This document shows positions 577 through 12,469 of a stretch of 21,423 bases of DNA, one piece after another. The stretch spans positions 1 through 21,423 of IMG/VR virus record IMGVR_UViG_3300034682_000108, one strand, 5' to 3'. The stretch comes from a virus. The notes below the pieces were generated by a model. The model ran no database searches, was not told where the DNA came from, and was given only the letters and a program-made list of their open reading frames with translations. The translations under genes were made by a program, and so were the position numbers. Positions within the stretch are counted from its first letter, which is position 1; every line of letters starts with the position of its first letter.

Positions 577-705
577 TCAATGCCCGCAGGGCAGCGCGCC
601 GCCCACGGGTGTGCCGTCGGAGTTGAACGGGTGGCGGCGGCCGCAGGCAATGCAGGTCTTTTCTTGCGTTGCCGGAGCTGGCGCGGGTTGTGGTGTAGTG
701 CTCAT
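577..705 (-). CDS. 42-aa Cys/His-containing small phage protein
   Basis: The ATG at 703-705 overlaps the stop of the upstream gene as ATGA and is preceded by a strong ribosome binding site (GGAGGTGAT), which favours it over the longer in-frame extension to 762. The protein has a Pro/Ala-rich N-terminal third, then CIAC at residues 18-21 and PCGH at the very C-terminus. This C-x2-C ... C-x-H spacing suggests one small zinc-binding knuckle. I do not recognise the family. Its place in a coupled early operon next to DNA metabolism genes suggests a small regulatory or adaptor protein, but nothing in the sequence shows a partner. Confidence 0.6.
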   Translation of the reverse strand: MSTTPQPAPAPATQEKTCIACGRRHPFNSDGTPVGGALPCGH

Positions 706-1190
706 GCCATCACCTCCGGACGTCCAGCCAGGCCGCAGTAGCCGCGGCGGCGGGCCAGCCACAGGTGCTCAGGTTCTACCCAGCATGCGCCGCCATCGTC
801 GCCGGGCTCATGGGGCGTGAACACCAGCGCAGGGTTCATGCCGGCTGGGCGCTCTGGCTCGACCTGCGCGTCGAACTGCTTGCACATGACGCGAACGCGA
901 TGGACGGCATGTTCCGGCTCGGCCCAGCGCCACATCGCGCACTTCTCGCCCACGCAGTTGGCGGCCATGGACACGCCTGGCGTGGCATCCATCACCATGA
1001 TAGTTTTGGACCCAGTGGCTTCGCCGCCCAACTTGAATTCCTCGGCGCTGGCGTATGCCACGACTTCAGCGGCTTTGACTTCCTTGGTCAGGCTGCGGTT
1101 GTAAGCGACGGGAATGTCCACGTTGCCTGCCTGGGCCACACGCGCCATGGGGCACCACAGGTCGCGGGCTTGTTCGGTGGTGTGGGTCAT
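702..1190 (-). CDS. Conserved phage hypothetical protein with Cys-rich CPMARV / CGEKCAMWRW / GYCGLAG motifs
   Basis: A 162-aa protein with a good ribosome binding site (GGGAGG, 7 nt before the ATG at 1188-1190). LWCPMARV (residues 11-18, Cys13), NCVGEKCAMWRW (79-89, Cys79 and Cys84) and GYCGLAG (150-156, Cys152) resemble a family I know only as phage hypothetical proteins. Four cysteines in conserved-looking contexts suggest an Fe-S cluster or structural zinc; Cys103 and Cys136 look like additional, less patterned cysteines. Both ends are translationally coupled by ATGA overlaps to the 109-aa gene upstream and the 42-aa gene downstream. No function can be assigned; a metal-binding DNA or RNA metabolism protein is the most I would infer. 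Confidence 0.72.
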   Translation of the reverse strand: MTHTTEQARDLWCPMARVAQAGNVDIPVAYNRSLTKEVKAAEVVAYASAEEFKLGGEATGSKTIMVMDATPGVSMAANCVGEKCAMWRWAEPEHAVHRVRVMCKQFDAQVEPERPAGMNPALVFTPHEPGDDGGACWVEPEHLWLARRRGYCGLAGRPEVMA

Positions 1191-1516
1191 GCTGCACCTC
1201 CCTGGTTGGGTTTGGCGGCGACAGCAAAAAGCATGTACTCACCGGGCTGCAGCTGCGGTGCTGCGCATGGGCACAGCTCCAGATCGTTTGTGCCGTTTTC
1301 TTCTACCCACAGCGTGCCAATGCTTGTGCGCGCATCCAGGCCTTGCACAACCTGCTGCGCCTCGGCCTTCATCGCGTGCAGCGCAGTGATGGCCTTGCCC
1401 AGCTGCTCGCGCTCGACGGCCACAGAGAAGCGGGCACCAGGGCGCTGCTGCATGGCGCTGAACAGGTTCAAGGCTGGCTCGATGGCCTTGATGATTTCGT
1501 CGTGTGTCATGGTCAT
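1187..1516 (-). CDS. Hypothetical phage protein, 109 aa
   Basis: The ATG at 1514-1516 overlaps the RdgC stop codon as ATGA; a second in-frame ATG two codons later is equally possible. Residues 5-60 look helical (DEIIKAIEPALNLF, REQLGKAITALHAMKAEAQQVV). The C-terminal part, with CPCAAPQL and PGEYMLFAV, is more beta-like. I do not recognise the family. It sits between RdgC and the Cys-rich 162-aa protein in a chain of overlapping stop/start codons, so it is probably co-translated with them. Confidence 0.65.
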   Translation of the reverse strand: MTMTHDEIIKAIEPALNLFSAMQQRPGARFSVAVEREQLGKAITALHAMKAEAQQVVQGLDARTSIGTLWVEENGTNDLELCPCAAPQLQPGEYMLFAVAAKPNQGGAA

Positions 1517-2433
1517 GCCGCACCGCCTTCCTCGCCCTCGGCGGCTTCTTCCTTGCCGTGGCCGATCATGGCCACCAGGTCGGTGATGACGGCCGACACG
1601 GCATCCACTTCCAGCGTGGCCTGGGCGTAGAAGCTCGGAGCCTCGTCGTCCTCGGCGTCGGTGTGCGCAAACTCGATGCCCTTCAGGCGGAAGTCCTTGG
1701 TCAGACGGAAGGCTGTCTTACCGTCGTGCGTGAAGCCCATCGAGATAACCTGGAAGCGGGAGGACAGCGCTTCCTTGATGGCCTGATTGGCGCCGGCGAG
1801 CGAGCCCATCTTGATGCTGATCTTGCGGTCGCCCTGCTGCAGTGCAGCTTCTTCGCAGGGGTTGAAGACGCCGAAGGCTTCTTCGTTGCCGGCGATCCAG
1901 GCTGCCAGGCGTGTGGTCAGGCCGTGCTTCACGTCGCTGACGTGAATGGTTTCTGTTTTCACGCTGCCCGTGGCCTGGACCAATGCCGAGGTGATGTAGT
2001 CGGCCAGCTTCTTGCTGGTGGTGGGCACGATCAGATAGCCGGTGGTCTGCTGGTAGAAGCACGTGATGATCGCCGTGCGCGGGAATGCCTGCTTCGCCAG
2101 CTCCAGCAGTGCCGCGTCCTTGATTTCGGAGCGCTCCTTCTTGCTGGGCGTGCGGTTTTCAGCTGCCTTGAAGGCTTCGGCGAGTTCATCGACCTTGCGG
2201 TTGAGAACGGAACCAGGGATTTGCTTTTCGTCAATGCGGACGCGGAAGGCGACGCCGTTCTTGAATGGCAGGGCCAGCTGGTCGCTGTCGGTCACGGGGA
2301 CGAAGCCGACGCTGCGCATATGCGTTGGCGCGCACTCCTGAAATGGGTTGGCCTGCAGCTTGTCGTGCAGAGCCTCGGCGTCCATGCCGAAGTCGGCTTT
2401 GTAGACGATGGCAGATTTGATGGTTTGCTTCAT
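1513..2433 (-). CDS. rdgC: RdgC-family recombination-associated protein (phage-encoded)
   Basis: A 306-aa protein. The start MKQTIKSAIVYKA at 2431-2433 is chosen because the frame further upstream runs through the GHKL ATPase gene in another frame and loses protein-like composition. No good Shine-Dalgarno is visible before it. Length and layout match RdgC (about 300 aa in bacteria): an N-terminal half with a VGFVPV segment near residue 42, a central all-beta/alpha part (RTAIITCFYQQTTGYLIVPTTS split by short loops) and a C-terminal acidic tail rich in Glu. Host RdgC is a ring-shaped dsDNA-binding dimer that restrains RecA by covering DNA. A phage copy may protect phage DNA or steer recombination towards the phage Sak4-like/SSB system encoded at 10.8-12.5 kb. 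It lies 65 nt downstream of the GHKL ATPase and shares its promoter. Confidence 0.82.
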   Translation of the reverse strand: MKQTIKSAIVYKADFGMDAEALHDKLQANPFQECAPTHMRSVGFVPVTDSDQLALPFKNGVAFRVRIDEKQIPGSVLNRKVDELAEAFKAAENRTPSKKERSEIKDAALLELAKQAFPRTAIITCFYQQTTGYLIVPTTSKKLADYITSALVQATGSVKTETIHVSDVKHGLTTRLAAWIAGNEEAFGVFNPCEEAALQQGDRKISIKMGSLAGANQAIKEALSSRFQVISMGFTHDGKTAFRLTKDFRLKGIEFAHTDAEDDEAPSFYAQATLEVDAVSAVITDLVAMIGHGKEEAAEGEEGGAA

Positions 2434-2498: not shown

Positions 2499-3578
2499 TT
2501 ACTTCAGGCGCCAGCTCTCGGCCTGCGTGATCAGGTCCTTGCGGAATGCCTCGATGGCAGCGCCTCGCATTTCGCGGCGGTTGGCGGCCAGCCATTTGCG
2601 CAGGACATCTGCTGGCGGCGTCACGGGCACCACGACCTCGCTGGTGTAGGCCTTGGTCTGGGTGACGAATGGGTAGTAGGCCGAATGCACCACCACCTTG
2701 GTCATGCCGCGCGCCACCAGGGCGTCCAGTTCTTCCTGGTTCTTGGCGATGACGGCGCCGGGGTGCTTGTTGCGGAACGCGCGGTAGCAGGCTTCCTTGA
2801 CCAGCGCTGGCGATCCGTACTCGGCGTATTCCAGGTCCTTGACGCCGGCGCCGATCATCTCGGCGATTTCCTCCCAGCGCTCGGTCTGGAACCACATGGA
2901 TTTCGTCGTGAAAAGCAGGTCAAAGCTCGACACGGTCTGGCGGTCGCGCTCCAGTTTCAGGAATTCGGGCTTCACGTCGTAGCCGAACTGCAGTTCGGTT
3001 TCGCAGACGAACAGGCCGCCAACGTACAGACGCCCAGGGCGGGCCCGCAGGATGCGGCCTTCCTGCACCTGGTGCACCTCGCCGATGTCGGTCTGCATGT
3101 GCAGGCAGCCGTCGCGGATCACGGCAATGTCGGCAGGGCTCAGGCCGCCGACCTCGAATTCCAGGCCTTCACGGCGCTGCGCAGCGGGCTCGTCCTCGAT
3201 GCACAGCACCTCGGCGTCGAACTGGCGCGACTGGCGGAAAACAGGCCTCCAGGTGCGGTCGCCGTTGTGGATGGTGACCGGGTAGCCGGCACGCGCCAAC
3301 ACCAGCAGCGCGATCTTGTAGCCCTCGCCGAAGCTGCCGATGGTGTCGGCGCTGTCGGCCTTGCTGGTCTGGCCCAGCAGCAGCGTGGCGGCCGACAGGC
3401 GGGAGTGGCGGCTGCGGATGTGCAGGCTGTCGGCGCGGAACTCGTACTCGAAGGGGCTGTCGCTATCGATTGCGTTCTGCAGCAGCTCGCGCACTGCTTC
3501 CGCCATGCCCCAGTGGCGAACGTAGGTCTTGGCGATGGGCAGCTCGTAGGTGCGGCTGCCCAAAGATAGAAGTGACAT
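2499..3578 (-). CDS. GHKL/HATPase-fold ATP-binding protein with degenerate G1 box
   Basis: A 359-aa protein. Two tandem ATGs occur at 3581 and 3578; the second is 5 nt from GGGAG and is preferred. The N-terminal 95 residues carry GHKL signatures: the N-box AVRELLQNAIDS (28-39, with Glu31 and Asn35 as the Mg/ATP residues), a GQTSK element (69-73) and the glycine box IGSFGEGYKIAL (80-91). The DxGxG box expected between them is replaced by SRHSRLS (56-62), so the usual adenine-contacting Asp is not evident. The remaining 260 residues are not recognised; they lack a histidine-kinase dimerisation helix, receiver or MutL-like nuclease motif. GHKL proteins (Hsp90, MutL, MORC, gyrase B) use ATP to clamp or dimerise. 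As first gene of a transcript also encoding RdgC and a clamp-like protein, a DNA-clamping role is plausible but unproven. Confidence 0.72.
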   Translation of the reverse strand: MSLLSLGSRTYELPIAKTYVRHWGMAEAVRELLQNAIDSDSPFEYEFRADSLHIRSRHSRLSAATLLLGQTSKADSADTIGSFGEGYKIALLVLARAGYPVTIHNGDRTWRPVFRQSRQFDAEVLCIEDEPAAQRREGLEFEVGGLSPADIAVIRDGCLHMQTDIGEVHQVQEGRILRARPGRLYVGGLFVCETELQFGYDVKPEFLKLERDRQTVSSFDLLFTTKSMWFQTERWEEIAEMIGAGVKDLEYAEYGSPALVKEACYRAFRNKHPGAVIAKNQEELDALVARGMTKVVVHSAYYPFVTQTKAYTSEVVVPVTPPADVLRKWLAANRREMRGAAIEAFRKDLITQAESWRLK

Positions 3579-3594
3579 CATTACTCCCGTGTTG

Positions 3595-3607
3595 TTTACG
3601 GGGTAAA
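3595..3607. promoter_or_regulatory. Operator O1, TTTAC-GGG-GTAAA
   Basis: A perfect 5+3+5 palindrome that overlaps by one base the -10 box of the leftward promoter in front of the GHKL ATPase. The same arrangement recurs at 9559-9576. Binding here would block RNA polymerase. Confidence 0.6.
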
Positions 3608-3612
3608 TAATA
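3607..3612 (-). promoter_or_regulatory. Putative -10 box (TATTAT) of the leftward GHKL ATPase-RdgC promoter
   Basis: On the minus strand TATTAT is followed directly by TTACCCCGTAAACA, closely matching TATAAT followed by TTACGCCGTAAACA at 9559 on the plus strand. No good -35 is seen; the hexamer at a 17-bp spacing is GTTCAC. The start codon lies about 30 nt downstream. Confidence 0.5.
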
Positions 3613-3621
3613 CACCAAGAA

Positions 3622-3634
3622 TTTACCGGGTGAA
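3622..3634. promoter_or_regulatory. Operator O2, TTTAC-CGG-GTGAA
   Basis: A second copy of the 13-bp element starts 27 bp from O1 and covers the -35/spacer region of the leftward promoter. One base departs from perfect symmetry. It is followed 3 bp later by a weaker half-matching element, TTCGC-GGC-GTGAA (3638-3650). Confidence 0.5.
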
Positions 3635-3653
3635 CACTTCGCGGCGTGAAATA

Positions 3654-4225: not shown

Positions 4226-5911
4226 TTATGCCGCGTTGCTGACCACCAGCGGCTGCGCGGTGCGCTCCAGCAGCGCCTTCAGGTCCTTAGGCTTCATGCG
4301 CCGGATGTCGTGCAGCGTGACGCCAAACTCCTGGTGCGTGGGCAGCCCGCTGCGCTTCTTGGCAGCCTCCAGGTTGTCGAGCACGGCGGCCAGCAGGGCA
4401 TCTTTCTTCTCGCGCGCTGCCACAATCTTCATGGCCTGCACCCTGCCGATGCCCTGGGCGATCAGCTGATCCAAGGACTTCGCCTGGCCCTGCAGCATGC
4501 GCTTTTGCCGGCGCAGGCGCTCGTCCTCGGCCTGATCGATAAGCTTCAGCTCTGCCTCGACCTGCTCCATCTCTATGACTTCGCGCTTTTTATAGATATG
4601 GTCGCAGTGCGGGCATGCCTTGTCGCCGTCTTTGTTCTTGTGGTCAGGGTCGTGATACCGCCTACACTTCGGGCACGCCTTGGCGCCCTCTTCGCCGCTT
4701 TCGTTGTCGTTGGCTGCCTGCCGGCGAGCCTTCTTCTCCGGTGGTGACAGCGTCCACTCGCGCTCCCAGTGCGGCAGCCCGTGTTCCTCGATTACGCCCA
4801 CGCAGTCCAGGATAATGGCTTTTTCCTTGTCGGGGTGCGGCCGCAGCACGCGGCCCGTGCCCTGCATGAAAATGCGCAGGCTCTTGGTCTTGCGCAGCCA
4901 GATGGCCGTGGTGGCGTAGGGGATGTCCACGCCCTTCACCAGCAGGCCAACGCCGGTCAACACGTCGATGTCGCCGCGGCCCAGGGCCTTCACGGCATTG
5001 CGTCGCACGCCATCCTCGGTCATACCGTCCAATGACTGGGCCCGGTATCCGCCGTCGCGGAAAGCCTGGGCGAATTTCTCGGCCATGCGCACGGTCGGGC
5101 AGAACGCTATGGCCGGCTTGCCGTGGCTGTAGTTGCGGTAGTGCTCCACGACGTCGCCGTATACGCGCGGAGCGTCCAGCTCCTTTTCCAGCTCCTGCGG
5201 GTCGTAGTCGTCGCCCTTCAGTTTGGTAAGGTCGGCGACGCCTTCAACCAGGTGCACGTCTGGCTTGTAAGCGTCGTAAGGCGACAGGAATCCGTTATCG
5301 ATCAACCATGCCTCGGTTGGGCCGTGCACAACGACGTCGTACAGCCCGCCCTCGCTTCGCGCGAAGCTCTGACGATCCATGCGGATCAGTGTGGCCGTCA
5401 GCCCCAGTAGTCTGGCGTCTGGCCAGTAGCCAATCACACGGCGCCACGTCGCAGCCAGGCTCAGGTCGCATTCGTCGGCGATGATCTGGAACGGGTTGAG
5501 CCACGCCAGCGCGCAGTCGGGTTTCCATAGCTCGCCGTCCAGCCGCCGCACCAGGGTCTGAACACTAGCGATCACGGCCTTGGCGCCGGTCTTCACGAAG
5601 CTGCGGCCGAATTCCAGGAACTCATGGGCGACGATCGCGCGGCGCGTCTTGTCGCTGCACACCAGCTGGTGCTCAATGCCGTACTCGGCCCAGGTCATGG
5701 CGGCCTGGTCGAGCAGCTCCTCCTGATCAACAATCCACAGCACCTGGCGGTCAGTCGTTGTGTACTTCTCGACAATGAACGACGCCGTGCGGGTCTTTCC
5801 GCCTCCAGTCGGGCAGCGCAGCACGATGCCCTTGGCTCCGGCCTGGTAGTGCTGCGAAATTTCGCGCACCATCGGCAGCTGATATTCGGGGCGCAGTACG
5901 ATCTTGCTCAT
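4226..5911 (-). CDS. SF2 DEAD/DEAH-box helicase with C-terminal zinc ribbon
   Basis: A 561-aa protein. The start MSKIVLRPEYQ at 5909-5911 is chosen because it overlaps the upstream stop as ATGA and has GAGGG 7 nt before it; the frame extends further but without protein-like sequence. Motifs in order: RPEYQ at the N-terminus, Walker A PTGGGKT (34-40), motif II DECD (146-149), motif III LTAT (171-174) and motif VI QGTGRVLRPH (350-359). Residues 413-436 form a CPKC...CPHC zinc ribbon, and the rest is helical and charged. Motif II has Asp where Cys/Ala-His is usual in related helicases. The enzyme should unwind or remodel DNA with ATP. Its position between a PD-(D/E)XK protein and a VRR-NUC nuclease suggests a branched-DNA processing unit. 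Confidence 0.85.
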   Translation of the reverse strand: MSKIVLRPEYQLPMVREISQHYQAGAKGIVLRCPTGGGKTRTASFIVEKYTTTDRQVLWIVDQEELLDQAAMTWAEYGIEHQLVCSDKTRRAIVAHEFLEFGRSFVKTGAKAVIASVQTLVRRLDGELWKPDCALAWLNPFQIIADECDLSLAATWRRVIGYWPDARLLGLTATLIRMDRQSFARSEGGLYDVVVHGPTEAWLIDNGFLSPYDAYKPDVHLVEGVADLTKLKGDDYDPQELEKELDAPRVYGDVVEHYRNYSHGKPAIAFCPTVRMAEKFAQAFRDGGYRAQSLDGMTEDGVRRNAVKALGRGDIDVLTGVGLLVKGVDIPYATTAIWLRKTKSLRIFMQGTGRVLRPHPDKEKAIILDCVGVIEEHGLPHWEREWTLSPPEKKARRQAANDNESGEEGAKACPKCRRYHDPDHKNKDGDKACPHCDHIYKKREVIEMEQVEAELKLIDQAEDERLRRQKRMLQGQAKSLDQLIAQGIGRVQAMKIVAAREKKDALLAAVLDNLEAAKKRSGLPTHQEFGVTLHDIRRMKPKDLKALLERTAQPLVVSNAA

Positions 5912-6510
5912 GCCGCCGCCCTCGCCTGCTGGGCCTGCAGTTTCGCGGCGTCGCGCTGGTGGTAGGCCTCCCACATGCGCAGGTTGGCCAGGCGGGCAAT
6001 GTCGATGACCTGCTGCGGCGTCAGCCGGTGGGCATCCTTGTTTGTCGTGGCGCGGCGCTCGCAGCAAACCTGCACGCGGCCGTTATGCTCCCAAAGCAGC
6101 AGCACGCCGCTGGCCTTGCTGGGCAGGCACTCCAAAAGCTCTGGCTTCCAGATTTCGCGCGGCAGCGCATAGTAATGTTTCCAGACCTTGCGCGGCCACT
6201 CCCGCGGCGTGCTGTCGTATATCCGCTCCTGCCTAGTCCAGATGTGCCGTCCGTTGGCGTCGTAGCCCTTCTCTTCGGGCTTGTACTGGCCGGTGAACAC
6301 GCGCTCCCACCACTTTTCCTTTTTGGCGTCTGCCTTCAGGTCTGCGCGGCTGATCTTCACCTCGACGTCGATGATGCGCAGGTCGGTCGTCACGCCCAGG
6401 ACGTCGCATTCTCTGCCCGTCCAGTTGCAGTTATCGACCAGCACCACGCATTTGCGCGCCAGGGTCTGCAGGGCGATGGCCCTGGCTATGTTGTGTTCGT
6501 TCCATTCCAT
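5908..6510 (-). CDS. PD-(D/E)XK nuclease-like (MmcB-like) phage protein
   Basis: A 200-aa protein. The start MEWNEHNIAR at 6508-6510 is preferred because AAGGA lies at good distance before it; an upstream in-frame ATG at 6555 has no such support and overlaps the previous gene. Residues 29-55 show the restriction-nuclease-like core: NWTGRECDVLGV (29-40, with Glu34 and Asp36), then the strand LRIIDVEVKISRADL (44-58) with Glu50-x-Lys52. WW at 67-68 and a YYALP segment follow. The closest match I know is the MmcB/DUF-type PD-(D/E)XK group, whose members are DNA-repair nucleases or inactive relatives. It overlaps the helicase start by ATGA and may act with it. Confidence 0.6.
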   Translation of the reverse strand: MEWNEHNIARAIALQTLARKCVVLVDNCNWTGRECDVLGVTTDLRIIDVEVKISRADLKADAKKEKWWERVFTGQYKPEEKGYDANGRHIWTRQERIYDSTPREWPRKVWKHYYALPREIWKPELLECLPSKASGVLLLWEHNGRVQVCCERRATTNKDAHRLTPQQVIDIARLANLRMWEAYHQRDAAKLQAQQARAAA

Positions 6511-6533
6511 AGGTTTCCTTGCGCCCGGCAGCA

Positions 6534-6848
6534 TCATGCCGCGGGCTCCATCCATTCGTCGGGCACGGGGTCGGGCAGCGCGGGCTTGTGCAGCACGTCG
6601 TCGGCAGGCATGCCCCAGTGCTTTCGGGCATCAACACGGCGCCAGGCGTGCGTCGTTCCGCTGTAGCCGTCGCCGCTCCGGCTCTTGCAGGGCTCGCCCA
6701 CCATGGCGTGGCACTGTGGGCAGGCGACAAACGCCACGCTCCGGTCGGTGCGCAGGTAGCGCCCGCGCTGGTCCGGCACCGCCACAAAGATGAAATGCGG
6801 GTCGCGGTCCTCGAAGGCCACCAGGCTGATGCGAGGCGTCACGGTCAT
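6534..6848 (-). CDS. Phage zinc-finger protein (C-x2-C-x7-C ... H), 104 aa
   Basis: The start at 6846-6848 overlaps the upstream stop as ATGA and has GGGAC before it; the longer frame to 6965 is rejected. An N-terminal beta-like region (LVAFEDRDPHFIFVAVPDQRG, broken by a turn) precedes the finger: CPQCHAMVGEPC then a short loop and THAWRR. The pattern CPxC-x-G-x-PC ... H-x-x-R is typical of small phage zinc-finger proteins thought to bind DNA. The tail PDPVPDEWMEPAA is acidic and proline-rich. Function unknown. Confidence 0.65.
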   Translation of the reverse strand: MTVTPRISLVAFEDRDPHFIFVAVPDQRGRYLRTDRSVAFVACPQCHAMVGEPCKSRSGDGYSGTTHAWRRVDARKHWGMPADDVLHKPALPDPVPDEWMEPAA

Positions 6849-7087: not shown

Positions 7088-7299
7088 AGAGTTTCTGGGA
7101 AGAGTTCCAGGGTTTGCGGGCCAGCCTCGCGGGCCTGGCTCCGGACAGTGGCGGCGATCCGCAGGCGGCCGCTTTTCGCGGCCTTCACTGCGGTCTTGGT
7201 CAGCCCCAGCTTGCGCGCGCAGTTTGGGCCGATGGGCTCGTCGCCGAGGTAGGCGAATGGCCGGGTGCGCCGGCCGCAGATGGAGCAGACGGGTTTCAT
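7084..7299 (-). CDS. Small zinc-ribbon-like phage protein, 71 aa
   Basis: The start MKPVCSICGRR at 7297-7299 has GAGGG 5 nt upstream and overlaps the methyltransferase stop as ATGA, so the much longer antisense-like frame is not used. Cys5 and Cys8 (CSIC) and Cys27 (PIGPNCARKLG) form a three-Cys half of a treble-clef-like fold. The IGPxCAxKLGL pattern is common in small phage proteins without known role. The C-terminal half is basic (TKTAVKAAKSGRLR). Confidence 0.65.
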   Translation of the reverse strand: MKPVCSICGRRTRPFAYLGDEPIGPNCARKLGLTKTAVKAAKSGRLRIAATVRSQAREAGPQTLELFPETL

Positions 7300-8909
7300 G
7301 CTGCCCTCGCCTTCCGCGAGTTGTCGTTGGCAGCCGCCTGCTTCTGCTCGGCGTAGTTGGCCGCAACGATGGCACGGGCCAGCGGCGGGCAGACGCTGTT
7401 GCCGCACATCCGAACCTGGGCATCCTTCGGCAGGGCACGGCCATCGGCACCGCGGTCGATTACGTAGTTTTCCGGGAAGCCCTGGGCTCGGTACAGCTCG
7501 CGCGGCTGCAGCATCCGCATGCCGATGTCGGCGATCACGTAGTCCTGGCCGAGCACAGTCACGACGCCGAAGCGGTGCTTGGTGGTGACCGTGTGCATGG
7601 GCTCGTCCAGCCGCGGGTCCTGGTCGGTGCCGTAGTATTTCAGCAGCAGCGCGCGCACCTCGGCGTGATGGGTGCCCTGGGCGCTGACGGTGTGCAGGGG
7701 CTCGGCCGTTCCGGCGCTGTTGCTGGTGCCGCGCAGCTTGACCAGGTTGCTGGTGACCAAGCCCATGACGTTGCCGGTGCTGGGGCGCTTGGGCGTGCCG
7801 CCGGCGGTGACGGTGTGCACTGGTTCGTCGGCTGCAGACCCGACGCTGCCGGTGCGGAGCTTGGTCAGGTGCGCAGCCACCAGGGCCTGCGGGCCGCCCT
7901 GGGCCAAGACCGTCGGCGCTGGCGCGTCCACGGGCTGCCCGGTCTTCCCGGGTGCGGGATCGCCGCCGAAGTGCTTGGCGAGATAGGCCGCCACCAGCGC
8001 GCTGTTTCCGCCGCTGGCCACGACCGTGGGCAGCTGCCCAGTGATAGGCCGGTTCCCGTGGCTCCAGCGCTTCACGCCAGACGGCGACACGTCGGAGTGC
8101 GCGCTGTCGATCAGCAGTGGCGCCGCAAGTCCTGGCACGATGAACGGCTTGTCGCTGTCCAGCACATAGCGCTTGATGCCGTGCGCGATGCGGCGCAGCG
8201 TCGAATCCTTCAGCGGCTTGTCGCGCTCGAAGATGCTGGGCGCCAGGATGTCCCAGTCGATGCAGTCGGCCGCCGTCAGGTACGGCTTGCGGCCTGGGCC
8301 ATGGGTGGGTTCGGGCCACACGATGGGCTTGCCGTCGCGGCGGGCCACCAGGAACAGGCGCTTGCGGATTGTCGGCGCGCCATAGTCGCAGGCCCGCAGC
8401 TCGCGGTACTCAATGACATAGCCCAGGTTCTCCAGGCGGGATTTCCAGTGGTGGAAAGTACGGCCCTTGCGCTTCGGGCACGGCTTGCCGCCTTTGAGCA
8501 GCGGCCCCCAGGTCTGGAATTCCTCGACGTTCTCCAGGAAGATCATGCGGGGCTGAACCGCCTTGGCCCACTTGATCACGACGCCGGCCAGGCCGCGGAT
8601 TTTCTTGGCGACCGGCTTGCCGCCCTTGGCCTTGCTGAAGTGCTTGCAGTCCGGCGATGCCCACAGCAGGCCCACCGGGCGACCGGCCGTCACGGTCAGC
8701 GGATCGACCTCGAACACGTCGCTGACATAGTGGCGGGTCTGGGGATGGTTGACCTCATGCAGGCTCACGGCCTGGGGGTCGTGGTTGACGGCGATGTCAA
8801 CGTGGCGGCCGATGGCCTGCTCGATGCCAGTGCTGGCGCCGCCGCCGCCGGCGAACAGATCGACTACCAGCTCATGGGCCAGAGGAAGGATGAACTGGCT
8901 GCCGATCAT
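7296..8909 (-). CDS. dcm: DNA (cytosine-5) methyltransferase, Dcm type, with repeat-built variable region
   Basis: A 537-aa enzyme that transfers methyl from S-adenosylmethionine to cytosine C5. Motifs in order: I DLFAGGGGASTGIE (17-30), IV SPDCKHFSKAKG (85-96, catalytic Cys88, PDC instead of PPC as in many phage enzymes), VI ENVEEF (126-131), VIII IRKRLFLVAR (181-190) and a C-terminal QPRELYRAQGFPE (468-480) with CGNSVCPPLA (502-511). The ribosome binding site GGAGG lies 7 nt before the ATG. Residues 290-445 between VIII and the C-terminal motifs contain about four copies of a 33-41 aa unit ending in P-x-x-TV. No cognate endonuclease is visible, so it is probably an orphan enzyme that shields phage DNA from host restriction. 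The C-terminus AANDNSRKARAA looks disordered. Confidence 0.93.
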   Translation of the reverse strand: MIGSQFILPLAHELVVDLFAGGGGASTGIEQAIGRHVDIAVNHDPQAVSLHEVNHPQTRHYVSDVFEVDPLTVTAGRPVGLLWASPDCKHFSKAKGGKPVAKKIRGLAGVVIKWAKAVQPRMIFLENVEEFQTWGPLLKGGKPCPKRKGRTFHHWKSRLENLGYVIEYRELRACDYGAPTIRKRLFLVARRDGKPIVWPEPTHGPGRKPYLTAADCIDWDILAPSIFERDKPLKDSTLRRIAHGIKRYVLDSDKPFIVPGLAAPLLIDSAHSDVSPSGVKRWSHGNRPITGQLPTVVASGGNSALVAAYLAKHFGGDPAPGKTGQPVDAPAPTVLAQGGPQALVAAHLTKLRTGSVGSAADEPVHTVTAGGTPKRPSTGNVMGLVTSNLVKLRGTSNSAGTAEPLHTVSAQGTHHAEVRALLLKYYGTDQDPRLDEPMHTVTTKHRFGVVTVLGQDYVIADIGMRMLQPRELYRAQGFPENYVIDRGADGRALPKDAQVRMCGNSVCPPLARAIVAANYAEQKQAAANDNSRKARAA

Positions 8910-9226
8910 GCTGCAGCCTCCACCAGCCAGTCAGCCAGCACCTCGACACGCATGCCGAGCCGCACGGCGATGTCGGCCTCCAGGCGCGCGCCGTTCGACT
9001 TCAGCCAGCCGGGCAGCAGGGCCACGCCCGTGCAGTCCATCAGCATCTTGATGTCGGCACGCATGTGCTGGTGCCACTCGGCATCGTCAGGCACGCCGTT
9101 GTCGACGGGGTTCACGACCTCGAAGCCGGCGGCTCGCAGGGCCTGCTCGGCGGCGTAGAAGGCGGGCTTGTTGAATTCCGGAAAGCCGGTCATCGGGCCG
9201 GACACGTACAGGATGCCGCGCTTCAT
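8906..9226 (-). CDS. DUF4406 / nucleoside 2-deoxyribosyltransferase-like protein
   Basis: A 106-aa protein with AGGAG 8 nt before its ATG. YVSGPMTGFPEFNKPAFYAA (residues 7-26) is the signature N-terminus of the DUF4406 group; it is followed by a helix and strand (LRAAGFEVVNPV, 30-41), then ADIKMLMDCTGVALLPGW (57-74) and SNGARLEADIAVRLGM (77-92). This is the layout of small nucleoside deoxyribosyltransferase-fold proteins, with Glu83 in the position of a possible catalytic acid. Related phage enzymes act on nucleotides or bind nucleotide-derived ligands; the substrate is not known. It is coupled by ATGA overlaps to the XRE gene upstream and the methyltransferase downstream. Confidence 0.8.
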   Translation of the reverse strand: MKRGILYVSGPMTGFPEFNKPAFYAAEQALRAAGFEVVNPVDNGVPDDAEWHQHMRADIKMLMDCTGVALLPGWLKSNGARLEADIAVRLGMRVEVLADWLVEAAA

Positions 9227-9465
9227 GCCGCTGCTCCTGGTTTGGCGCCTGCCTTCTTGGCAGCGGCGCGTGCGGCCACGGCCTTGTGCAGGTCGTCGGC
9301 CGACACGGCACCACCGGTGCCGATGCGGATGGCCTCCACGGTGTCGGGCTTCGGCATGCTCATGCCGGTTTCCCAGCGCCAGACCTGCACGCCGGATGCA
9401 TGCACCAGCTTGCCAAATGCGGCGCGGCTGAGCTTGCGCAGTTTTCTGTATTCCTTGAGTTCCAT
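9223..9465 (-). CDS. XRE/Cro-like helix-turn-helix regulator
   Basis: An 80-aa protein whose first 45 residues form a lambda-repressor-like HTH: LKEYRKLRKLSRAAFGKLV (3-21) then ASGVQVWRWETGMSMPKPDTV (23-43), with recognition helix around VQVWRWE. The C-terminus is Ala/Lys-rich. It is first in the leftward early operon and faces the divergent promoter region at 9466-9594, as expected of a Cro-type switch protein. It is a good candidate to bind the 9488-9523 inverted repeat or the TTTAC-N3-GTRAA operators, but no direct evidence links it to either. Its ribosome binding site is weak (AACAAGATC). Confidence 0.75.
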   Translation of the reverse strand: MELKEYRKLRKLSRAAFGKLVHASGVQVWRWETGMSMPKPDTVEAIRIGTGGAVSADDLHKAVAARAAAKKAGAKPGAAA

Positions 9466-9487
9466 GATCTTGTTAAGTGGTTAGCAC

Positions 9488-9523
9488 GTTGCAATATTAC
9501 ACGCGGCTAAATATTATTGCAAC
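9488..9523. promoter_or_regulatory. Inverted repeat GTTGCAATA-N18-TATTGCAAC over the leftward early promoter
   Basis: A perfect 9-bp inverted repeat (9488-9496 and 9515-9523) whose arms overlap the -10 and -35 of the predicted leftward promoter. The arm spacing places both on one face of about two and a half helical turns. It is probably a repressor or autoregulation site for the XRE gene. Confidence 0.5.
9494..9522 (-). promoter_or_regulatory. Predicted leftward early promoter (XRE-DUF4406-Dcm operon)
   Basis: On the minus strand, -35 TTGCAA (9517-9522) and -10 TAATAT (9494-9499) are separated by 17 bp; each matches 4 of 6 consensus bases. The XRE start codon is about 30 nt downstream. Confidence 0.45.
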
Positions 9524-9558
9524 CAGCGTAAAGCATCACACAAGTCTAAAGACGTGTG

Positions 9559-9564
9559 TATAAT
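9559..9564 (+). promoter_or_regulatory. -10 box TATAAT of the rightward recombination operon
   Basis: A perfect consensus -10, 30 nt before the exonuclease ATG. No convincing -35 is visible at 16-18 bp (TCACAC at 17 bp), so an activator may be needed. Its last T is the first base of operator O3. Confidence 0.55.
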
Positions 9565-9576
9565 TTACGCCGTAAA
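9564..9576. promoter_or_regulatory. Operator O3, TTTAC-GCC-GTAAA
   Basis: A perfect 5+3+5 palindrome placed against the -10 box exactly as O1 is placed against its own promoter 6 kb away. It is followed 3 bp later by TTCAC-AGG-ATGAA (9580-9592), which includes the AGGA ribosome binding site of the exonuclease gene. Confidence 0.6.
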
Positions 9577-9594
9577 CACTTCACAGGATGAATT

Positions 9595-10620
9595 ATGGAA
9601 AACTACTTGCAGGGCATGTTTGCCGACATGCCGAACGCGGTCTATCACGGCCACGTCCACATCGGTAGCAGCGGCTTCAAGCTGCTGGCCCGCAGCCCGC
9701 TGCACTTCTGGCACGCCAGCCCGATGAACCCGGATCGCGAGCCGCGCGAACCCAGCGTCTACATGACCATGGGCACGGCCTGGCACACCGGCATCTGGGA
9801 GCCCGAACTTTTCGACGGCAGCTACGCCGCCAAGCCGGACATCAGCCCCATGAGCACCGTGGCGAAACTGCTGGACGAAGCGCTGGCCGGCTTTGACGCT
9901 TTCAAGGCGCGCTATGTCGCCATCCCCGAAGGCCTGACCAAGACCAGCAAGGAAGGCAAGGCGCTGCTGGCCGAGCTGGAGGCCCGCGGCCAGACAGGCG
10001 TCGAGGCCGACAAGCTGGCCCAGGTGCTGGAGCTGGCGCCGACGCTGATCGGCAAGACGCTGCTGTCGGCCGAGAACCTGGACAAGGTTCGCGCCATGAC
10101 GGAAGCCGCGCGCCGCCATCCGGTAACGCAGGCCATCTTCGCGCTGCCCGGCGGCATGTCCGAGCACTCGATTTTCTGGGTCGATCCGGTGACCGGGGCG
10201 CCATGCCGCATCCGCCCAGATTACGCCGTGCCGCCCTGCTCGATGTTCCCCTACGGCCTGGTGGTGGACGGCAAGTCGAACGACGACAGCAGCCCGGTAG
10301 GCTTTGCCCGCAGCGCCTGGAACTCGGAAATGTATTTCCAGGCCGCGTTCTACGCCGACGGCTTCCAGCAGCACTTCAAAACCGAGAAGCCGCCCGTCTT
10401 TGCCTGGCTGGCCCAGGAGCGCGAAGCACCGTTCGCCACGACATACTACGCGGCGCCGCCCGACTTCATCGAGTACGGCCGCCGCAAGTACCGCCGACTG
10501 CTCACCCTGTTCGCGGAGTGCCTGCGCACCGGCCAGTGGCCCAGCTACAGCCAGCAGGTGCAGGACCTGGCGCTGCCAGCCTGGGCCGCCAAGGAAATCG
10601 ACGCCGAGGTGCGGGCATGA
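9595..10620 (+). CDS. RecE/YqaJ-like PD-(D/E)XK exonuclease (exodeoxyribonuclease VIII-type)
   Basis: A 341-aa protein; AGGA lies 6 nt before the ATG. N-terminal helices SSGFKLLARSPLHFWHA (25-41) and GTAWHTGIWEPE (60-71, His64) match the entry motif of phage RecB/RecE-family nucleases. The catalytic core follows: Glu190 in GGMSEHSIFWVD, Asp209 in IRPDY, the D-x-K pair Asp225/Lys227 in VVDGKSN, and Gln249 in MYFQAAFYADGF. DGKSN departs from the usual DLKTT but keeps D-x-K. The enzyme should resect dsDNA ends to give 3' single strands for annealing. It is first in an operon with a Sak4-like ATPase and SSB, a typical phage recombination cassette. Its stop overlaps the next start as ATGA. Confidence 0.82.
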   Translation: MENYLQGMFADMPNAVYHGHVHIGSSGFKLLARSPLHFWHASPMNPDREPREPSVYMTMGTAWHTGIWEPELFDGSYAAKPDISPMSTVAKLLDEALAGFDAFKARYVAIPEGLTKTSKEGKALLAELEARGQTGVEADKLAQVLELAPTLIGKTLLSAENLDKVRAMTEAARRHPVTQAIFALPGGMSEHSIFWVDPVTGAPCRIRPDYAVPPCSMFPYGLVVDGKSNDDSSPVGFARSAWNSEMYFQAAFYADGFQQHFKTEKPPVFAWLAQEREAPFATTYYAAPPDFIEYGRRKYRRLLTLFAECLRTGQWPSYSQQVQDLALPAWAAKEIDAEVRA

Positions 10621-10826
10621 GGGCATCCATCCTTGGCGCCGCCATTGCCGTGATTGCCCGCACCGCCGGCTCGCTGGCGTTGGCCATGCCGGCGCCGCTT
10701 CAGGAACCCGGGTGGCCCGGAATGCCCGGCGCCAGCACCCGCAAGCCTGCCGGCAAACGCCCGGCCGGCAGCAAACTCGCCCGCATGGCCCGCGAGGGCC
10801 GCGTGGGTGTTTCACAACCACGTTGA
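10617..10826 (+). CDS. Small basic protein with hydrophobic N-terminus, 69 aa
   Basis: The ATG at 10617 overlaps the exonuclease stop as ATGA, with GAGG 7 nt before it. Residues 2-25 (RASILGAAIAVIARTAGSLALAM) are hydrophobic with two Arg and could be a weak signal or membrane helix; the rest is Pro/Gly/Arg-rich and ends in KLARMAREGRVGVSQPR. I do not recognise the family. It lies between the exonuclease and the Sak4-like ATPase, 9 nt before the latter. Confidence 0.6.
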   Translation: MRASILGAAIAVIARTAGSLALAMPAPLQEPGWPGMPGASTRKPAGKRPAGSKLARMAREGRVGVSQPR

Positions 10827-10835
10827 AAGACCATC

Positions 10836-11945
10836 ATGTCCTTTGAAATCAAAGTCGCAGAGCGCCAAGGCGCGCGCCTGCTGATCCAGCTGTCCGGCGT
10901 GTCGGGCGGCGGCAAGACGCTGACCGGCCTGCTGCTGGCCTACGGCCTGACCGGCGGCGACGGCAGCAAGATCATCGGCATCGACACCGAAAATCGCCGC
11001 ATGTCGCTGAACGCCAGCAAGGCCACCTACGACCTGGCACAGCAGCAGCTCGGCCTGGCCCAGCCCGTGACACCGTTCCGCACCATCGACTTCTTCGCGC
11101 CGTTCTCGCCGGCACGCTACATCGAGGCCATCGACACCGCGTGCAAGGCCGGCGCCGAGGTCATTGTGATCGACAGCGTGACCCACGAATGGGAGAGCGA
11201 AGGCGGCTGCGAGTGGATCGCCAACCAGACACGTTTCCCAGACTGGAAGCGCGCCAAGGCGGAGCACAAGCGCTTCATGACCTTCATGCTGCAGTGCCCG
11301 GCCCACATCGTTGCCTGCACCCGGGCCCGCGAGAAGGTGGACTTCAGCGACCCGAAGAACCCGAAGCCCTTGGGCATCCAGCCCATCCAGGAGAAGAACT
11401 TCAGCTTCGAGGCAACTGTCAGCCTGATGATGCACGACCAGGGCCGCAGCCAGGACGTGCTGAAGTGCCCAGCCGAGCTGCAGGCCATCATGGGCCGTGG
11501 CCAGGGTTACCTGACGGCGGCCGACGGCCAGGCGCTGCGCTCCTGGGTGGACGGCGGCGCCCCTGTAGACCCTGCCGTCGAGCACTGGCGCGGCGTCCTG
11601 CTGAACGAATGCGAGAAGGGCGTCGCAGCGCTGCGGGCGAAATGGAACTCCATGCCCAAGGGAATGAGTGGCAAGCTGGGCACGGCCTTCCGTGACCAGT
11701 GCGCGGCCAGCGCCGAGGCCTACGACCAGGCGCGCCAGCAGCAGCAGGATGGCCAGGGCGCCGGCAGTGACGCGTTCGACGCACTGAACCAAGCGGCCGC
11801 ACAGCAGCAGGTGCAGCAGCCAGCAGCTGACGCCGATGCTCCAGCAGCTGCCAGCGCTGGCGCAGACGCCACCACGGCGGCCGCCACGTCCACGACAGCC
11901 CAGGCGCCCGCAGCGGCACCAGCTGAAGACGGCATCAAGTTCTGA
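10836..11945 (+). CDS. RecA-core AAA ATPase, Sak4-like single-strand annealing/pairing protein
   Basis: A 369-aa protein. Walker A is GVSGGGKT (21-28), followed by [11 protein letters not shown] (48-57) and Walker [13 protein letters not shown] (109-120, Asp113). The core ends near residue 240. The C-terminal 110 residues are Gln/Ala-rich, look disordered and end in an acidic tip, DGIKF, that resembles an SSB-type tail. Phage Sak4 proteins are a minimal RecA core that promotes annealing with the phage SSB; the order exonuclease-ATPase-SSB here supports that role. It is longer than typical Sak4 (about 220-240 aa) because of the C-terminal extension. A generic phage nucleotide-binding ATPase is the alternative. 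Confidence 0.78.
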
Positions 11946-11956
11946 CGGGAGGCACC

Positions 11957-12469
11957 ATGGCATCAGTTAACAAGGTGATCCTGGTCGGCAATCTGGGCCG
12001 CGATCCTGAAATGCGCACGTTCCCCAGCGGCGACCAGGTGGCGAACGTCACCATCGCCACCACGGACCGCTGGCGCGACAAGACCACCGGCGAGAACAAG
12101 GAAGCCACGGAGTGGCATCGCGTCGTGTTCAATGGCCGCCTCGCCGAGATTGTCGGCCAGTACCTGAAGAAGGGCTCGCAGGTCTACGTCGAGGGCTCGC
12201 TGCGCACGCGCAAGTGGACCGACCAGGCCACCGGCCAGGAGCGCTACGCCACCGAAATTCGCGCCGACAGCATGCAGATGCTGGGCAATCGGCAGGACGC
12301 CGGCGGCGCCAGCAGCACTGGCCCGCGGGATCATATTGATCCTCCGAGTGGAGGCCAGCAGCGGCAAAGCGCCGCTCCTGCTACCACCCAGCTCACTGCC
12401 GCAGCGCCACCTCCGGCCCAGCGTGCTGCGTCCGGTTTTGACGATATGGATGACGACATCCCATTCTGA
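11957..12469 (+). CDS. ssb: Single-stranded DNA-binding protein
   Basis: A 170-aa protein; GGGAGG lies 5 nt before the ATG, 11 nt after the Sak4-like gene. Residues 1-110 are the OB fold with the classic opening [19 protein letters not shown] (2-20), [15 protein letters not shown] (51-65) and [18 protein letters not shown] (69-86). Residues 111-155 are a Gln/Pro/Ala linker, and the end, DDMDDDIPF, is the acidic tip through which SSB recruits partners. It should coat single strands from the exonuclease and cooperate with the Sak4-like ATPase. The operon ends just after it at a terminator. Confidence 0.95.

Follow-up and report, generated by a model that had tools for sequence, protein, structure and literature searches.

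A predicted phage GHKL-transducer family without the adenine-binding Asp and its partner Thr, associated with recombination genes in about a third of loci

Among the residues that give GHKL enzymes (Hsp90, gyrase, MutL, histidine kinases) their specificity, none is more characteristic than the aspartate that binds adenine. In canonical members the base is read by this D-box Asp together with a Thr of a later strand, which acts via a water molecule (Asp79 and Thr171 in yeast Hsp90; cf. PMC9880540). Loss of the Asp is not unprecedented, since sacsin, a protein with three Hsp90-like domains, carries an Asn in its place and lacks the D-box glycines, and ATPase activity has been reported for larger sacsin constructs (PMC9880540). 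The lysine Lys180 of sacsin is predicted to touch the gamma-phosphate, and its catalytic arginine is supplied by a downstream domain (PMC9880540), a layout proposed also for the phage proteins described below. MORC and paraMORC proteins combine a GHKL domain with an S5 transducer, keep the ATP-binding motifs and are found in restriction-modification operons (PMC2292703). Among phage proteins, T4 RIIA and its relatives likewise join a GHKL domain to an Hsp90-type transducer, and a counter-defence role, itself poorly understood, has been ascribed to RIIA orthologues (PMC7824862).

The protein considered here is encoded in a window of 21,423 nucleotides, by which the whole stretch of viral DNA that was analysed is meant (IMG/VR record IMGVR_UViG_3300034682_000108, positions 1 to 21,423). 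Its fold, motif states, co-loss of Asp and Thr, conservation, genomic context and shared promoter were computed.

2499..3581, minus strand: GHKL-transducer NTPase-like protein, phrog_6077, 360 aa (open reading frame, family match and AlphaFold2 model)
2502..3098, minus strand: C-terminal half of this protein, residues 162-360, Hsp90/MORC-type transducer (S5-like) with a helical end (structure comparison)

The 360-aa open reading frame matches phrog_6077 with E = 3.5e-99 (PHROGs v4) and has relatives of 27-68% identity in 113 phage records, plus many IMG/VR contigs, and can therefore be regarded as a real gene; one homologue comes from E. coli K-12 phage 4MG. Two adjacent ATGs stand at its start; the second one (3578), which follows GGGAG and had been taken as the start in an earlier note on this DNA, is probably the better choice. 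All 62 relatives scanned matched phrog_6077, of which the window protein is a full-length member; the PHROGs v4 entry lists the function as unknown and has no function, fold or motif analysis attached. The sacsin-type profile NF047352 was matched by 51 of the same 62 relatives (best E 1e-7), the window protein itself scoring 20.5 bits, which is below the curated cut-off of 50. No GHKL relatives came up when the PDB was searched by sequence with the profile of the family, and nearest-DNA searches among phages and plasmids yielded short matches only, mostly to the methylase.

An AlphaFold2 model built from 50 homologues reached a mean pLDDT of 92.6 and contains a Bergerat fold. Foldseek searches against the PDB placed MORC4 and TRAP1/Hsp90 first (E 1.6e-5 to 7e-4, with MORC4 on top at 1.6e-5), followed by TopoVI-B, ParE and GyrB. 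In the VIA comparison, the N and middle domains of Hsp90/TRAP1 were the best whole-length match (TRAP1: Z 11.2, 278 residues, rmsd 6.7, model residues 14-319); since T6 topoisomerase II, MORC2 and GyrB lie within 1.5 Z of TRAP1, the fold singles out no one subfamily. Both comparisons are in line with the GHKL fold proposed in the earlier note, for which structure prediction against MORC and Hsp90 folds had been suggested. The statement that the C-terminal 260 residues match nothing, on the other hand, does not hold: modelled alone, the C-terminal half reached a pLDDT of 93.2, and its top 31 Foldseek rows were all Hsp90, TRAP1 or MORC, at weak scores (best E 9e-4; Z up to 5.3). The protein would thus be built like the N and middle domains of Hsp90 or MORC. 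It has half the length of Hsp90, without the C-terminal dimerisation domain and without DxGxG, and it differs from MORC and paraMORC, whose layout it shares, by the missing D-box. The HEPN, J and UBL domains of sacsin are absent. An hhalign comparison with HtpG aligned LYVGGLFVC with the HtpG strand LYVQRVFVM, but only locally and without placing the catalytic arginine loop in register, so that Arg214, for which motif comparison with HtpG and T4 RIIA suggests equivalence to Hsp90 Arg380, is a putative catalytic residue only; the same applies to it as a counterpart of the catalytic basic residue of MORC and paraMORC.

The residue states of the nucleotide pocket were counted in 108 aligned full-length homologues, and the 82 of them nearest to the window protein were treated as a core clade.

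3465..3488, minus strand: N-box ELLQNAID, residues 32-39, with catalytic Glu32, Mg-ligand Asn36 and Asp39, invariant in the core clade
3393..3413, minus strand: SRHSRLS at residues 57-63, where DxGxG would be expected, with Ser57 at the position of the adenine-binding Asp
3360..3362, minus strand: Lys74, near-invariant lid lysine of GxTSK (homologue alignment)
3315..3338, minus strand: G2 box GSFGEGYK, residues 82-89, intact (homologue alignment)
3162..3167, minus strand: Gly139-Leu140, Gly-Thr in canonical homologues, the Thr being the adenine-water Thr (homologue alignment)
2940..2948, minus strand: Arg212-Asp213-Arg214, invariant (alignment), proposed to include the transducer catalytic arginine (Hsp90 Arg380-like)

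These states agree with the earlier description of a GHKL protein with intact N-box (ELLQN, residues 32-36) and glycine box but without DxGxG. Across all homologues the column of the D-box Asp holds S in 85, N in 11, D in 9 and T in 3, meaning that the Asp is absent from 99 of 108. Within the core clade Ser occupies it in 80 sequences and Asn in 2, while positions 58-61 vary freely, and the substitution by Ser57 is therefore a conserved one; decay of a single gene is ruled out by the same count. The Thr of the "GT" strand is lost in the same 99 sequences, where Leu, Val, Ile or, rarely, Met or Tyr is found. Gly-Thr is kept in all nine Asp-bearing (D-type) homologues, and all 99 others lack both Asp and Thr. 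When the tree was built with these columns left out, each trait required the same two changes; the number of origins is unsure, because the D-type root is weak and the branches are long.

The nine D-type homologues are cellular and distant, 337-808 aa long and with a proper DxGxG (from Dehalococcoidales, Bathyarchaeota, Aneurinibacillus and others); they have the N-box and G2 box in common with the phage proteins and, in several cases, also the (L/N)xRDR motif. Judged from these members and from the modelled fold, the window protein is a GHKL homologue, not a canonical GHKL ATPase. The opposite motif deviation was seen in five loci from Dehalococcoidales and Rhodobacteraceae (L118, L119, L121, L123 and L125), in which the D-box is canonical and the catalytic Glu of the N-box is changed to Asp (AIRDIVQN). 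The wider family also includes a GHKL domain with the D-box DNGAGF in an Omnitrophota open reading frame of 2,938 aa (L122:7989-16802).

Invariant in the core clade are E32, Q35, N36, D39, K74, G82, G85, G87, K89, R97 and R212-D-R214. With Asp and Thr lost while the catalytic and phosphate-contacting residues are invariant, the pocket looks remodelled at its base end and preserved at its phosphate end. The Hsp90-like domain of sacsin SR1 is similar: its lid lysine lies in GxSxK, N-box and G2 box are both intact, and the D-box has lost its glycines and carries a residue other than Asp (Asn); by analogy, Lys74 may be the equivalent of sacsin Lys180. Sacsin, however, keeps the equivalent of Thr171, whereas the phage family has Leu, Val or Ile there. 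The novelty relative to sacsin is thus that the Thr is lost too and that a Ser is conserved at the Asp position. Since ATP binding is abolished in yeast Hsp90 D79N, in which the adenine Asp is lost, binding of NTP by the phage protein is not assured; we infer that it may still bind nucleotide. The reading that we prefer, and to which we assign roughly an even chance, is a stand-alone phage GHKL-transducer NTPase switch that serves DNA recombination and recognizes the base in a non-canonical manner.

Foremost among the alternatives is a pseudo-ATPase that has lost nucleotide binding and uses its GHKL-transducer body as a scaffold or to bind another ligand. The disappearance of both adenine-reading residues and of the D-box glycines from 99 of the 108 homologues would fit such a protein. 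We nevertheless regard it as unlikely, since a dead pocket would not need the catalytic Glu, the Mg-binding Asn, the lid Lys, the glycines of the G2 box (three in all) and the arginines of the transducer, all of which are essentially invariant among proteins at 45-60% identity, and since sacsin shows that an Asn at the Asp position can go together with reported ATPase activity (PMC9880540).

Somewhat less probable again is a RIIA-like counter-defence or membrane-protection factor. A fold search among viral models ranked RIIA proteins (E 1e-9) directly after the protein's own family (E 1e-30), one homologue (H16) is called "RIIA lysis inhibitor" in a phage record, and the counter-defence role ascribed to RIIA orthologues points the same way. 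T4 RIIA, however, has a canonical D-box (RDFGPGM) and 725 aa, and RIIA proteins, at about 700 aa, have another C-terminal region and form another sequence family. The window protein matched no RIIA PHROG, its only significant PHROG matches being phrog_6077 and phrog_8203, and its profile comparison with T4 RIIA by hhalign was weak (probability 33%).

The preferred reading, an NTPase switch serving recombination, draws on the organization of the window, where two operons appear to be under common control.

3607..3634, minus strand: promoter-like TTCACC-16-TATTAT, sigma-70-like, upstream of the GHKL gene (promoter search)
3593..3608, minus strand: operator-like inverted repeat ATTTACCCCGTAAACA, overlapping the -10 (repeat search)
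3621..3636, plus strand: second operator-like site ATTTACCGGGTGAACA (repeat search)
1513..2433, minus strand: RdgC homologue in the same operon as the GHKL gene (PF04381, E 2.1e-41)
1187..1516, minus strand: 109 aa protein of the operon, no family assigned, overlapping the rdgC stop
702..1190, minus strand: 162 aa protein of the operon, no family assigned
9559..9578, plus strand: promoter -10/operator TATAATTTACGCCGTAAACA of the exonuclease-P-loop-SSB operon, laid out as at the GHKL promoter
9595..10620, plus strand: exonuclease VIII-like PD-(D/E)XK exonuclease (phrog_412, E 5.8e-75)
10836..11945, plus strand: RecA-like P-loop NTPase (phrog_1366)
11957..12469, plus strand: SSB (phrog_44, E 3.8e-58)
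9223..9465, minus strand: small HTH-like protein, putative regulator acting at the shared operator (sequence)

The GHKL-RdgC and exonuclease-P-loop-SSB operons have a near-identical promoter/operator, TGTATWATTTACNCCGTAAACA. At the GHKL gene the promoter-like site lies within a pair of 16-nt inverted repeats, and its 20-mer layout TATTATTTACCCCGTAAACA recurs once in the window as TATAATTTACGCCGTAAACA, at the rightward -10; the shared 20-mer fits both promoters with zero mismatches, and none of 100 shuffles gave a match at three or fewer mismatches. The operator-like TTTAC-N3-GTAAA overlaps the -10 in the same way at the leftward and the rightward promoter (3593-3636 and 9559-9578). From this arrangement the two operons probably constitute a single regulon, a link between GHKL-RdgC and recombination that does not depend on the survey of neighbours. 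The shared operator was absent from the other loci fetched, and L060, which alone among the other loci has adjacent GHKL and RdgC genes, showed no inverted repeat in front of GHKL.

The view that the GHKL gene leads a unit with RdgC is confirmed for the window, with RdgC directly downstream and the promoter-like site and operator directly upstream. The clamp-like downstream protein that the earlier note had also mentioned is not recovered, as neither 1187-1516 nor 702-1190 has a meaningful family match. A survey of co-occurrence, likewise suggested there, found rdgC in 4 of 61 other homologue records, adjacent in L060 and far away in three; with adjacency in 1 of 61, a specific GHKL-RdgC pairing is rejected. 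Of the DNA-protection or anti-recombination unit envisaged originally, the role in recombination is backed by the shared operator and by the recombination genes near the GHKL gene, while the clamp partner and a regular pairing with rdgC find no support; an anti-defence role is conceivable. The protein encoded next to the GHKL-RdgC pair of L060, at 7118-7873, has its stronger match (E 4.8e-30) to a RusA-like resolvase profile; a DNA polymerase processivity factor profile is matched at E 3.6e-9.

Recombination genes were found within two genes of the GHKL gene in about 13 of 45 loci, and about 32 of 45 had no recognised one at that distance. The combinations include RecT with YqaJ in the two closest homologues (L001, L002), RecT with exonuclease VIII (L078), an exonuclease VIII-like protein with a P-loop NTPase (L026, L039, L063) or an exonuclease alone (L102), PDDEXK with Sak4 (L025, L076), and the phrog_7838 "exonuclease" with a Gp157/Gam-like protein (L027, L054, L066, L072, L073). 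The P-loop NTPase of the window clusters with the one that adjoins GHKL and exonuclease VIII in L063. A PHROG/Pfam scan compared 115 genes one to two positions from GHKL with 115 genes five to eight positions away: the near set was dominated by recombination families, with exonuclease VIII (5), phrog_7838 (5), Gp157/Gam-like (5), RecT (3), ligase (3), RecE/YqaJ (2), Sak4 (2) and RdgC, whereas helicases, polymerases and methylases lead the far set, where recombination families are outside the 25 commonest. In six of ten distinct records a RecT or DUF3799 gene lay no more than 2.5 kb from GHKL, where 1.4 such records would be expected (p about 8e-4). A near/far Fisher test (p 5e-11) is inflated, because its clusters were picked for adjacency to GHKL, and was set aside; the distance test and the family/PHROG comparison are used in its stead. 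The association with recombination genes is real and concerns about a third of loci; as adjacency and co-regulation, the link is one of guilt by association.

In the most likely mechanism, an NTP-gated, dimerising switch would assist recombination or end handling of phage DNA. Mg-NTP would be held through the N-box, the lid Lys and the G2 loop, with the base read differently or only loosely by the pocket. Like other GHKL-transducer proteins, the protein would dimerise and re-open with hydrolysis, and in doing so may load, gate or remodel the exonuclease, the annealing protein and RdgC on phage DNA. The more specific proposal, that the family has switched its base readout (non-ATP, or base-blind for NTP/dNTP) and provides recombination proteins with a nucleotide-gated DNA clamp or chaperone, is doubtful. 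A large phage family that lacks the Asp and its partner Thr and keeps the catalytic and phosphate machinery makes the use of other nucleotides by a Bergerat fold testable. If the preferred reading is true, phage recombination modules would have a GHKL switch of their own, which we did not find described in the literature searched.

The methylase, nuclease and helicase genes upstream of the GHKL operon raise the question of a MORC/paraMORC-type restriction-modification unit of the phage.

7296-8909, minus strand: cytosine DNA methylase
5908-6555, minus strand: MmcB/PD-(D/E)XK-like protein
4226-5911, minus strand: SF2 helicase

All three lie on the strand of the GHKL gene, and such gene content is known from MORC and paraMORC operons (PMC2292703). 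We consider this reading very improbable, however, because the context is not recurrent, with methylase, helicase and nuclease neighbours varying among relatives (a helicase in about six, an MmcB-like gene in one), because a promoter-like site of its own precedes the GHKL gene, and because PADLOC gave zero matches in the window. Least probable of all is a general early-region gene with an unrelated function, its place in a DNA-metabolism region having no further meaning, as the small unknown proteins beside it in many loci could suggest, given that the genes five to eight positions away are polymerases, helicases and methylases instead of recombination genes and that the GHKL and exonuclease operons have an operator in common.

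In L088 (around 8001-11507) and L095, the GHKL homologues adjoin DarA/DarB-like antirestriction and head-type proteins, a setting distinct from that of recombination.
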